Assembly: GCA_017651225.1 (NCBI GenBank)
Contig: JAGCDF010000016.1
Span: 1 to 46,832, forward strand
Origin: Bacteroidales bacterium
GTDB lineage: Bacteria; Bacteroidota; Bacteroidia; Bacteroidales; UBA932
Direction: 5' to 3'
DNA: 46,832 nt
This document shows, piece after piece, positions 1,434 to 5,749 of the stretch; position 1 is the stretch's first letter, and each line of letters starts with the position of its first letter. The notes beneath the pieces were generated by a model, which saw only the letters and a list, made by a program, of their open reading frames with translations, had not been told where the DNA came from and did no database searches. A program made the translations under genes and the position numbers.

Positions 1434-2000
1434 ATGAAGAAGATTATTCTCGGCAGCAATTCGCCGCGCCGCAGGGAGCTGCTGGCGGGGCTGGACATCG
1501 ATTTCACGGTCGACACCGGCAATACCTTCGAGGAGCGCCTGGAGCCGGGCGTGGAGGCGCATCAGGTGCCCGTGCAGCTGAGCGCGGGCAAGTCGCACGG
1601 CTTCCACCGACCACTGGCGGCGGACGAGGTGCTGATCACGTCCGACACGGTCGTGATCGTGGATCAGGAGGTGCTGGGCAAGCCGCATTCCCGCGAGGAG
1701 GCGGTGGAGATGCTCTGCAAGCTGTCCGGCCGCGCGCACGAGGTGGTCACGGCCGTGACCATCCGCGACTGTGAGCGGGAGGAGACGTTCAGCGTGTCCA
1801 CGCAGGTGCATTTCGAGACGCTCGCGCAGGCGGAAATCGACCATTATATCGACAAGTACCGGCCGTACGACAAGGCGGGGGCCTACGGGATCCAGGAGTG
1901 GATCGGGTATGTGGGCATTTCCGCCATCGAGGGCTCTTTCTACAACGTCATGGGTTTCCCGGTGCACCGGGTCTGGCACGCGCTGCAGCGCTTCCTCTGA
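1434..2000 (+). CDS. maf: Maf-like nucleotide pyrophosphatase
   Basis: Cytoplasmic house-cleaning enzyme that hydrolyses non-canonical or excess nucleoside triphosphates (dTTP/UTP type) to monophosphates. The 188 residues span the whole family. The N-terminal signature is SNSPRRRELL (residues 8-17), followed by the catalytic SDTVV segment near residue 70, GKPHSREEA, and the C-terminal DKAGAYGIQEW and GSFYNVMGFP motifs. It starts one base after kdsC, and its TGA stop shares a base with the ATG of the next gene (TGATG), so both are translationally coupled. Confidence 0.93.
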   Translation: MKKIILGSNSPRRRELLAGLDIDFTVDTGNTFEERLEPGVEAHQVPVQLSAGKSHGFHRPLAADEVLITSDTVVIVDQEVLGKPHSREEAVEMLCKLSGRAHEVVTAVTIRDCEREETFSVSTQVHFETLAQAEIDHYIDKYRPYDKAGAYGIQEWIGYVGISAIEGSFYNVMGFPVHRVWHALQRFL

Positions 2001-3397
2001 TGGCCCGCGCGCCCTTCACCTACCCTTTCTGCTACACCCCCGCGCCCGACATCGTCGCCGCCGCGGAACGCCTCATTGCCTTCTTAGATCGGCCATTCGG
2101 GAGCTTGCCCCTGAAAACGTCCTGCTGCGCAGGACCCTTCCCACTGCCTTCGGCAGCGGGCCCCTCCCTCTTACGAAGCCGAGGGTGGCTACGGTTTTCA
2201 GGGGCAACTCCCGAAATGGCCAATTTATTGAAAGGAGGCAAGATGTTAGGGGTATTGAAAGTAGAGGATGAGGAAGGACGGGAGGATTACTTGTATGCGT
2301 TCAGCGGGACGGTCGGGGGTCGGGCGACGCTGCCGGGGTTTGTGCCGCCGATCTACGATCTGACGGCGCCGGAGGGCTATTTCCGGCAGCGCGAGGCGGA
2401 AATTTCCGCCATGCCGGCCGGACCGGAGCGCGCGGCGGCGTCGGCGGAACTGCAGACCTGGATCTTCGACCAGTACCGCGTCAGCAACGCCCGCGGCGAA
2501 ACCCTCACCATCCGCGAAGTCTTCGCCCGCCGCGGCCTCATCCCGCCCGGCGGCACGGGCGACTGCGCCGCCCCGAAGCTCCTGCAATACGCTTACAGCC
2601 ATCACCTTACGCCCATCGCCATGGGCGAATTCTGGTACGGCGCCTCCCCCGCCTCGGAAGTCCGCGAACAGGGCCGCTTCTACCCCTCCTGCACCGGCAA
2701 ATGCGGCCCCCTGCTGAGCTTCATGCTGGAAGGCCTGGACGTCGAACCCAACCCCCTCGACCGCGAATTCACCGCCGACAGCGAACCCCGCATCCTCCAC
2801 GAAGACGCCGACATCCTCGTGGTCAGCAAACCCGCCGGCATGCTCTCCGTGCCGGGCCGCACCCGCGCCAAATCCCTGCTGGACTGGCTCCGGGAGCGCT
2901 TCGGCGAAGTCCACTCCTGCCACCGGCTCGACATGGACACCTCCGGCGTCATGGTCTTCGCCCGCAACCTGGCGGCCAAATCCGAGCTCGAGCGGCAGTT
3001 CGCCGAGCGCGAAGTCGCCAAGACCTACCGCGCCCGCCTCGCCGCCGGCAGCCAACCTTTCGCCCACGCACGCAAAGGCACCATCGCCCTCCCCCTCTGC
3101 CTGGACTACTACGACCGCCCCCGGCAGATGGTGGACCGCGAGCACGGCAAGCTCGCCGTCACCGAATACGAAGTGCTGGAGCAACTCCCTGACGGTGAGA
3201 TCGATATCCGCTTCACGCCCAAGACCGGGCGCACCCACCAGCTGCGCGTCCACGCCGCCCACGCCGACGGCCTCGGCCGCCCCATCAAGGGCGACCGCCT
3301 CTATGGAAGCGCAGACGGAGGCCGTCTCTGGCTGCACGCCGAGAGCCTCCGTTTCCGCCACCCCGTCACCGGGGAGATTCTCTATTTCGAAGCCTGA
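2000..3397 (+). CDS. RluA-family pseudouridine synthase with in-frame palindromic insertion
   Basis: Isomerises uridine to pseudouridine in ribosomal or transfer RNA. The catalytic domain is residues 265-465; the active-site aspartate lies in CHRLDMDTSG (about residues 308-317), and the C-terminal signature TGRTHQLRVHAAH is intact. An N-terminal accessory region typical of Bacteroidota members precedes it (FTYPFCYTP, YAFSGTVGG, FVPPIYDL). The start at ATG 2000 is chosen because it overlaps the maf stop and begins the conserved N-terminus. Residues 31-74 are encoded by a strongly palindromic DNA element and look foreign: they separate the AAAERLIAFL helix from GGKMLGVL, which from memory are much closer in relatives. 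A strong Shine-Dalgarno-like AAAGGAGG (2231-2238) precedes an in-frame ATG at 2243, so a shorter product is possible. Its stop abuts the convergent esterase stop with no spacer. Confidence 0.9.
   Translation: MARAPFTYPFCYTPAPDIVAAAERLIAFLDRPFGSLPLKTSCCAGPFPLPSAAGPSLLRSRGWLRFSGATPEMANLLKGGKMLGVLKVEDEEGREDYLYAFSGTVGGRATLPGFVPPIYDLTAPEGYFRQREAEISAMPAGPERAAASAELQTWIFDQYRVSNARGETLTIREVFARRGLIPPGGTGDCAAPKLLQYAYSHHLTPIAMGEFWYGASPASEVREQGRFYPSCTGKCGPLLSFMLEGLDVEPNPLDREFTADSEPRILHEDADILVVSKPAGMLSVPGRTRAKSLLDWLRERFGEVHSCHRLDMDTSGVMVFARNLAAKSELERQFAEREVAKTYRARLAAGSQPFAHARKGTIALPLCLDYYDRPRQMVDREHGKLAVTEYEVLEQLPDGEIDIRFTPKTGRTHQLRVHAAHADGLGRPIKGDRLYGSADGGRLWLHAESLRFRHPVTGEILYFEA
2086..2226. repeat. Multi-hairpin palindromic element inside the rluA-family gene
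   Basis: The outer arms 2091-2120 and 2191-2221 are inverted copies over about 30 bases, differing only by three single-base indels (left GGCCATTCGGGAGC, right complement GGCCATTTCGGGAG, then TTGCCCCTGAAAAC in both). Between them sit three further hairpins: GTCCTGC-TGC-GCAGGAC (2119-2135), CCCACTGCC-TTC-GGCAGCGGG (2140-2160) and CCTCCCTC...GAGGGTGG (about 2163-2187). Together they would fold into a cloverleaf. The element is read through in frame without a stop. No second copy was found in this window. Inference: a mobile palindromic element tolerated inside a gene. Confidence 0.75.
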
Positions 3398-4961: not shown

Positions 4962-5369
4962 TTAGCGGAAGAAGAAATAGTAAGCGACCCAGCGCATCGG
5001 GATACCCTCGGCGTAGCCGATGGTCCGATAGGACGAATCCTGGACCGTGCCGTTGCTCTTAATATAGCCGATGGTCCGGTACGAAGAGTCCTGCACGGTG
5101 CCGTCACTCTTGATGTAGCCGATCGTCCGGTAACTCCCGTCCTGGACCGTGCCGTTCTCTTTCAGGTAAGCGACCGTCCGGTAGCTGCCGTCCTGCACCG
5201 TGCCGTCGGCCTTGATGTGGCCGATGGTGCTGTAGTTGCTGCTCTGGATGGTGCCGTCGGACTTGATATAACCCAGGGTGCTGTAGTTCGAAGCCTTCAC
5301 CGTCTGGGCGTGGGCGGCGGAGCCGGCCAGGGCCAGCAAAGCCGCCAGGATGATAAGGATACGGCGCAT
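4962..5369 (-). CDS. 5-fold beta-flower repeat protein, secreted
   Basis: 135 residues with a cleavable signal peptide (about 21 residues, ending in AHA-Q). The mature part is six tandem 17-residue units of the form TVQDSSYRTIGYIKSDG, closed by a divergent tail with the run YYFFFR. This matches the Bacteroidota family known as 5-fold beta-flower proteins, which have a solved fold but no known function. The units are also recognisable as 51-bp tandem repeats in the DNA. ATG at 5369 is chosen because it lies just after the ridA stop and opens directly on the signal peptide; the ATG 21 bases upstream would overlap ridA. The esterase gene follows after 13 bases. Confidence 0.82.
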   Translation of the reverse strand: MRRILIILAALLALAGSAAHAQTVKASNYSTLGYIKSDGTIQSSNYSTIGHIKADGTVQDGSYRTVAYLKENGTVQDGSYRTIGYIKSDGTVQDSSYRTIGYIKSNGTVQDSSYRTIGYAEGIPMRWVAYYFFFR

Positions 5370-5371
5370 GG

Positions 5372-5749
5372 CTATTTCGCTGCGATACATTCGATTTCCA
5401 CCAGCGCCCCCTTGGGTACGGACTTGACGGCCACGGCGCTGCGGGCCGGGAAGGGTTCGGCGAAGAACTCGGCGTACACCTCGTTCATCGCGGCGAAGTC
5501 GCCCATGTCGGCCAGGAAGACCGTCGTTTTCACGACGTTGGCCATGGAAAGGCCCTCGGCGGCCAGGATGGCCTGCACGTTACGCAGGGACTGGCGCGTC
5601 TGCGCCTGGATGCCCCCTTCGGGGAAGGCGCCCGTGGCGGGATCGATGGGCAGCTGCCCGGACAGGAAGACGAGACCGGCGCCACTGTCGACAGCCTGGC
5701 TGTACGGACCGATGGCGGCGGGAGCGTTGGAAGTACTGATGGGTTTCAT
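5372..5749 (-). CDS. ridA: RidA family reactive intermediate deaminase
   Basis: Hydrolyses reactive enamine/imine intermediates such as 2-aminoacrylate made by PLP enzymes. The 125 residues match the family. The start MKPISTSNAPAAIGPYSQA is diagnostic, with FLSGQLPIDPATG, the substrate-carboxylate-binding arginine in PFPARSAVAV, and VEIECIA at the C-terminus. ATG 5749 is preferred to the one 15 bases upstream because family members begin at MKPI. The gene is preceded by a leader of about 150 bases that contains a terminator-like hairpin, so its expression may be attenuated. It is followed after two bases by the beta-flower gene. Confidence 0.92.
   Translation of the reverse strand: MKPISTSNAPAAIGPYSQAVDSGAGLVFLSGQLPIDPATGAFPEGGIQAQTRQSLRNVQAILAAEGLSMANVVKTTVFLADMGDFAAMNEVYAEFFAEPFPARSAVAVKSVPKGALVEIECIAAK

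Follow-up and report, generated by a model that had tools for sequence, protein, structure and literature searches.

A dispersed palindromic element of Bacteroidales with a co-varying pseudoknot, found in frame within protein genes

Introduction

An rluA-family pseudouridine synthase gene at positions 2000..3397 (plus strand; assigned from the ORF list and homology) of a 46,832-nucleotide Bacteroidales contig, analysed as a whole and called the window here, contains a long palindrome in its reading frame. Is this palindrome a normal part of the gene, or is it a mobile repeat? A first-pass annotation, made from the letters of the window alone, had described it as a cloverleaf-like element whose two arms are inverted copies of each other, translated without a stop and resembling the in-frame palindromic elements of Rickettsia. 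Here, we describe its fold, its copies, the genes that host them, and the ways in which it might spread.

Results

A folded palindrome on the strand opposite rluA

The whole element occupies 2086..2226, and its canonical strand is the minus strand, antisense to rluA. The arms, at 2085-2118 and 2194-2227 (34 nt), are 79% complementary in ungapped comparison, a value that rises if one-base bulges are permitted. The minimum free energy was -84.1 kcal/mol for the plus strand and -92.5 kcal/mol for the minus strand, with z-scores of -8.7 and -10.0, respectively, and none of 200 dinucleotide shuffles equalled it on either strand. The arms are thus inverted copies of each other, as annotated, and the annotated stop-free read-through was also confirmed, since the frame from the ATG at 2000 to the ORF end at 3397 is open across 2086-2226.

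Inside the arms, the minus strand carries GTCCTGCGCAGCAGGAC, CCCGCTGCCGAAGGCAGTGGG and a CCCTC..GAGGG region. Read in the canonical direction, the minus strand starts with the 5' arm (2194..2226) and the 5' side of pseudoknot stem 1 (CGTAGCC, 2187..2193), followed by a loop purine (2186) and, within the stem-1 loop, the 5' side of pseudoknot stem 2 (CCCTC, 2181..2185), which pairs with 2166-2170. Next come the 3' side of stem 1 (GGCTTCG, 2174..2180), a TAA linker (2171..2173) whose middle base goes with purine 2186, and the 3' side of stem 2 (GAGGG, 2166..2170). Hairpin 2 (CCC..GGG with a variable inner part, 2140..2160), hairpin 3 (GTCCTGCGCAGCAGGAC, 2119..2135, which varies among copies and is mostly self-complementary) and the 3' arm (2086..2118), complementary to the 5' arm, complete the element. 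The arms were delimited by inverted-copy comparison, the pseudoknot stems by covariation, and the two hairpins by folding. "Cloverleaf" was therefore nearly right: there are closing arms and three branches, but one branch is a pseudoknot.

Covariance model R1, built from 37 copies, scored 87.4 bits at 2105-2207, where the window copy itself belonged to the training set. Rfam returned three sub-threshold matches in the window region (E of 0.63-6.1) and no family at threshold; the only match touching the element was bxd_1 at 2205-2280, with 15.5 of 75 bits. At six other loci, the element had no Rfam match at E ≤ 0.5. A pistol-like ribozyme, which has a loop pseudoknot, was weighed as a candidate and set aside. 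Elsewhere in the window, 4962-5390 (minus strand) encodes a small protein with an N-terminal signal-like stretch made up of ~15-residue repeats (YIKSDGTVQDSSYRTIG).

The palindrome is a dispersed repeat

An rluA match at E ≤ 1e-30 was obtained in 25 of the 61 genomes of the genus set, the window's own included. The insert is absent in 9 of 11 RluA orthologues of the genus, these being the best 11 of the loci returned (LIERLDAAGSPLREGKM in G015 is one insert-free example), in line with the first-pass statement that the protein segments on its two sides are adjacent in other Bacteroidota. G082 carries the element at the same codon site as the window. In the genome to which the window belongs, 79% complete with 1.87 Mb in 77 contigs, blastn gave seven strong copies and the covariance model eight. 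Because 9 of 11 orthologues lack the segment and copies occur elsewhere, the palindrome is no normal part of rluA; it is a real dispersed repeat. At the LD/KEGKM site of rluA in G008 (L168), a different, shorter in-frame hairpin (TCCGCGGAAAT ... ATTTCCGCGGA) replaces the element; it could be either a vestige or a different small palindrome.

An 87-base core query, with at most 14 candidates scored per genome, matched in 24 of 61 genomes, that is, in 24 of the 37 of the genus (own included) and in none of the 24 genomes of other families. With the covariance model, an order-wide sample of 198 genomes gave the element in four, one of which is the window's. The others belong to three other genera among 150 sampled: G186, of the same family as the window, had 6 matches, and G088 and G238, of two other families, had 5 and 19, respectively. 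The search proposed in the first-pass annotation thus places the element elsewhere in Bacteroidales, both in its own genome and in three other genera. G085, the second genome of the window's genus in the order sample, gave no model match, and in a phylum-wide sample of 395 genomes the model matched only the window's own. The order and phylum counts are lower bounds, owing to strict filters and at most 20 and at most 10 candidates scored per genome. G016, a well-assembled relative, has 6 model copies in a 400-kb sample, which extrapolates to some 36 per genome. Both G238 and G016 show expansions with shared arms, apparently recent.

A pattern scan of genome contigs returned at least 120 stretches. 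The 80 titles among the matches listed were all of Bacteroidales, Bacteroidaceae, Bacteroidia or Candidatus Cryptobacteroides (two) MAGs, the majority of them recovered from animal gut. Carriage by phages, viruses or plasmids was dropped, as the exact pattern scan gave 0 matches in viral contigs and blastn with the window element gave none in plasmids and phages. From 165 loci, 153 unique pattern copies were obtained, and the 147 with an arm score of at least 24 and a length below 260 were analysed; their lengths span 97-243 bp. A full-text literature search, with most subscription papers outside its reach, returned no description of the family.

In G238, one to three tandem units trail each of the copies at L276, L277, L275 and L270; these units hold hairpin 3, the 3' arm and the tail only and are therefore 3' partial copies. 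Near element copies of the same genome, a TPP riboswitch match (L270:1228-1326, minus strand) scored 53.4 bits against a gathering threshold of 54.3.

The core is a co-varying pseudoknot

Across copies, the canonical order is 5' arm, 5' side of stem 1, purine, CCCnn, 3' side of stem 1, linker (mostly TAA or TGA), nnGGG, AGGGGCCC, hairpin 2, GGGAGGG, hairpin 3 and 3' arm; in one subtype, a short ATTTA or ATTCA stands in place of hairpin 3. Since CCCnn sits in the stem-1 loop and pairs with nnGGG, the core is an H-type pseudoknot. The search pattern fixes the inner pairs and permits only C/T at one pseudoknot position, only A/G in the loop and only A/G at one stem-1 position; the free evidence for pairing therefore lies on the opposite sides of the pattern-constrained pairs. 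The two variable pseudoknot pairs were both formed in 114 of 114 full-pattern copies, against maxima of 69 and 96 in 1,000 shuffles, with four pair types at one position and two at the other. This count left out 33 of the 147 copies, which depart from the complete pattern of stem 1, almost always because the stem is shorter. The outer pairs of stem 1 were formed in 114/114 and 113/114 copies, and the fourth pair in 108/108. The loop purine and the linker changed together in most of the 114 copies: A with TAA in 55 and G with TGA in 50, followed by A with TTA (4), G with TAA (3), G with CCA (1) and A with TCA (1).

In the 37-copy alignment, 95.8% of cells were paired, compared to 82.6% in shuffles; 61 cells were altered on both sides, compared to 16.7; and the covariation score was 0.375, compared to 0.125. 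None of 500 shuffles matched any of these three values, and registers slid by 1-3 columns gave 31-53% paired. Two further statistics of this alignment did not exceed shuffles, namely, the number of pairs with a both-side change (446 of 500 shuffles as high) and the number of further pair types (500 of 500). The co-varying H-type pseudoknot on the strand opposite rluA is a new observation of this analysis.

Copies within genes keep the frame open

We called the frame of each copy with a phase-aware coding model applied to 240-nt flanks, with the long ORFs of these loci as its training set; 16 of the 147 copies lay too near the locus end for calling. Seventeen copies were in frame and open, 1 was in frame with stops, 4 were on the same strand in another frame, and 9 had opposite-strand flanks, while 66 had one coding flank and 34 none. 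Among the 22 copies flanked on either side by coding sequence of the same strand, the 17 in-frame open ones compare with ~7 expected by chance (binomial p ~ 3e-5, our own arithmetic). The five exceptions have stops within the element or at its edge, as at gene ends. Fourteen of the 17 are antisense and 3 are sense. An earlier, stricter caller, also based on a model with this training, placed 4 copies in frame, none in another frame and 1 opposite, with the rest uncalled; because it made too few calls, it was replaced by the margin-based one, with the first result known beforehand.

Some stop-free frame (40 codons on the left, 30 on the right) spans 68 of the 147 copies, in some cases surely spuriously. 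Twenty of 69 spanning ORFs, chosen as likely genes, were searched, 10 against NCBIfam and 10 against Pfam, and 19 matched a known family (L005 did not). The hosts include RibF, HemW (204 bits, cut-off 205.4), MtaB, YgiQ, TrmB, TruB and RsmH. Family matches run across the insert in MtaB (match 34-464, insert 132-179), YgiQ (32-630, 232-275), RibF (277-604, 417-459), an RNB-domain protein (228-604, 360-404) and an ABC ATPase (27-189, 56-97). In the remaining matched ORFs, the family match lies on one or both sides of the insert.

RibF matched in 59 of the 61 genomes of the genus set, as a single piece in 11 and, in the other 48, as at least two pieces that skip the insert of the query. About ten of the best 30 RibF loci carry the element, a diverged element or another insert; the insert is partial in G003 and full in L055. 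Most RluA and RibF relatives examined are without the insert. In two species (L238 and L240), a direct repeat (GSSLKKAVFADGEVE) takes the place of the element in the RibF loop, which shows that inserts of several kinds are tolerated there. In a SpoU-type methyltransferase gene, one site holds the element in G008, G015, G082, G011 and G027, reversed in orientation in G011, whereas G000 and G036 have nothing there. At this site, L331 differs in element orientation from L018, L041 and L330, which come from different species; the two orientations represent either independent insertions or a core inverted between its arms. At the HemW site (L002/L193), G015 has a short hairpin (CCGGAAGGAAGCGGTTCCGG) and the window's genome the element.

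Arms differ between copies and stay paired within them

From the eleventh arm position onwards, agreement between two copies is ~25-52%. Within a copy, the first 24 nt of the arms pair at 94% on average (147 copies), compared to 57% for arms of different copies (300 random pairs), and complementarity extends to a median of 29 nt. At an orthologous site in two species with flanks 88% identical (L136/L149), four changes affect both arms and pairing is kept, although three of the four could alternatively be one compensated indel and some uncompensated changes adjoin the core. In all, 17 ortholog pairs were compared by eye.

These arms bear on whether the element is an ordinary MITE, with terminal inverted repeats and a transposase acting on double-stranded ends, which we regard as unlikely. 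Its size and inverted-repeat ends fit, 15 G238 copies have their left end in common, and alike cores go with alike arms in some pairs, e.g., L290/L300/L308. However, arms can differ at 94-100% core identity, which leaves no single terminal sequence: L023/L045 have identical cores and arms 67% alike, and L298/L299 have cores 94% identical and arms 50% alike. Over 60 listed pairs with a core identity of at least 0.92, arm identity ranged from 0.04 to 0.96. A widely spaced pair of the same ends, as expected of a partner transposon, was not found in G238, the one genome searched for it. Recognition of double-stranded ends would predict neither the pseudoknot nor the strand asymmetry described below.

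An origin of the arms in host flanks was also considered, as RluA and RibF (L129) first read as a native arm and its inverted copy. A nucleotide comparison gave this reading no support. Across 27 RibF sequences without a full element, the left arm matched better in 12, the right in 8 and both equally in 7, with mean scores like those of shuffled arms. In RluA, some of the stretch taken to be native is arm sequence common to other copies. The TldD-like and SpoU sites are ambiguous in this respect.

Pairing tolerance is tied to one strand

Read on the canonical strand, the arm mismatches of the 147 copies are asymmetric, with 83 G.U against 34 A.C (p 7e-6) and 104 G.A against 12 C.T (p 2e-19). 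The 14 antisense in-frame copies show the same trend (G.U:A.C 10:1, p 0.012; G.A:C.T 31:2, p 1e-7); the 3 sense in-frame copies, too few to weigh, gave 1:1 and 9:1. For the 34 copies with no coding flank called, G.U taken alone is in weak excess (21:10, p 0.07), and G.A remains in excess (14:2, p 0.004). The asymmetry in antisense in-frame copies speaks against selection on the mRNA fold. Since arm conversion confined to double-stranded DNA should leave no such asymmetry, and an antisense copy is present in its host mRNA as the other strand, we infer that selection acts on the single canonical strand, either RNA or DNA.

Might the element instead be a structured RNA kept by the host, e.g., a regulatory or stabilising transcript element, and spread by occasional duplication? 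The RNA-like fold, its covariation, the tolerance of G.U, the maintenance of arms in place (L136/L149) and the 100 of 147 copies with at most one confidently coding flank would all suit such an RNA. We nevertheless hold this to be improbable, because in-frame copies are antisense 14 to 3, with the favoured fold of an antisense copy on the strand missing from the host mRNA, and because the RibF insert is missing in most genus genomes and the family is patchy in the order.

RAYT transposases and removal from mRNA

We assign a low probability to a REP/BIME-like repeat that is mobilised by a RAYT (Y1 tyrosine) transposase. The genus does contain several RAYT-like ORFs, mostly ~280-370 aa, and some copies have GTAG at the base of stem 1; moreover, REPs inside ORFs are known in other bacteria, according to the accessible part of PMC3733652. 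Against this, the element is several times as large as a REP, the covariance model gave 0 element matches at E ≤ 0.1 in 20 RAYT regions, and the RAYT flanks inspected (19 of 20) contained palindromes of other kinds. None of the three element-bearing genomes of other genera (G186, G088 and G238) gave a Y1_Tnp match. Element and Y1 matches number 8 and 0, respectively, in G014, and 0 and 6 in G006. Thus, the family search, flanks, covariance model and presence/absence patterns all leave a RAYT/REP origin unsupported. Two 12-base core-like strings from a motif scan of RAYT regions (L208 and L219) are not the element by the covariance model. Several distinct RAYT-like proteins occur in the genus (L208-L227), many flanked by short palindromes of their own.

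That the element is cut out of the mRNA or bypassed (self-splicing, RNase III excision or translational bypass), to give a protein without the insert, is very improbable: the strong fold and the conserved enzymes among the hosts would fit, but an open frame in 17 of 22 copies would be needless if removal took place at the RNA level, and no Rfam intron or ribozyme matched at the window or at six other loci.

Discussion

We consider it likely that the palindrome is a non-autonomous mobile element that acts like the Rickettsia palindromic elements (RPEs), probably moving as a folded single strand. Its arms enclose a pseudoknot and usually two hairpins, and copies lie both between and within genes; within genes, the frame-open copies survive, presumably translated as an extra loop. 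The entity under selection would be the folded single canonical strand, whether RNA or single-stranded DNA, which some enzyme may recognise during movement. Complementarity of the arms would be kept by selection on the fold together with self-templated copying, in which one arm would serve as template for the other through fold-back synthesis or template switching.

The copies compared revealed no transposition event, and orthologous copies at one site could reflect old vertical inheritance. The RAYT family search, the search for G238 ends and the covariance model run on RAYT regions found no mobilising enzyme or partner transposon. No target-site duplication was found, as there was no exact empty site, the empty relatives compared being only ~69-85% identical.

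A narrower version of the folded-strand reading, which we put forward tentatively and consider rather doubtful, makes the pseudoknot obligatory, has it recognised by an enzyme, and has one arm rebuilt from the other at each move, perhaps drawing also on flanking host DNA. Rebuilding by fold-back synthesis would produce alike or identical cores with different, self-matching arms and would tie pairing tolerance to one strand. The strand asymmetry points to a single-stranded intermediate, a hint that can be tested.

How does this mobile palindrome compare with known systems? Bacterial MITEs are small, have no coding capacity and end in inverted repeats. The element shares these features but differs in that no fixed terminal sequence, partner transposon or target duplication was found.

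Nematomorpha mitochondrial genes contain inverted repeats whose arms are complementary despite changing sequence, for which template switching has been proposed in the accessible part of PMC6649704. Those coding palindromes, as far as that part goes, have no shared core, whereas the shared core here defines a dispersed family. GTAG REPs are described in the accessible part of PMC3733652 as 20-40 bp units beside RAYT, sometimes inside ORFs, with REPs noted in several tRNA pseudouridine synthase genes. Both kinds are, on that description, dispersed palindromes found partly in ORFs, and here RluA and TruB genes carry inserts; unlike the GTAG REP/RAYT system outlined there, the element occurs in genomes without a Y1_Tnp match. 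The same portion of PMC3733652 describes CGTC-tagged REPs, palindromes known also from Bacteroidetes, without an associated transposase gene and with no known mover. They have 8-9 bp stems and 4-5 base loops, are often head-to-head dimers, and include RPE-4 and RPE-6, with occurrences within ORFs in R. conorii (PMC3733652, same portion). Some copies have CGTC next to hairpin 3 (in the window, when the gene strand is read), but at 97-243 bp and with a pseudoknot, the element is set apart from CGTC-tagged REPs by that partial description.

The likeness to RPEs seen in the first-pass annotation stands as an analogy, by description and not by sequence: both are dispersed palindromes in frame in genes, here of 97-243 bp and in 17 of 22 cases. 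RPEs, reportedly the subject of work by Ogata et al. in 2000 and 2002, measure roughly 100-150 bp. We know of no settled mechanism for the spread of in-frame palindromes of this kind. In the accessible parts of PMC6649704 and PMC3733652, RPEs appear as many-copy palindromes tolerated in frame in protein genes, and repeat identity is lost with time according to the part of PMC6649704. Such decay of the arms is not seen here, where mean pairing is 94% over 147 copies and an orthologous site shows compensated changes. The present family also belongs to another phylum, and its co-varying pseudoknot core, its strand asymmetry and its copy-specific arms that stay paired exceed the descriptions of RPEs in those parts. 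A gut Bacteroidales family with well over 100 copies, apparently recent expansions and a co-varying pseudoknot thus offers a concrete object for studying RPE-type spread, and it bears on how proteins gain long translated inserts.
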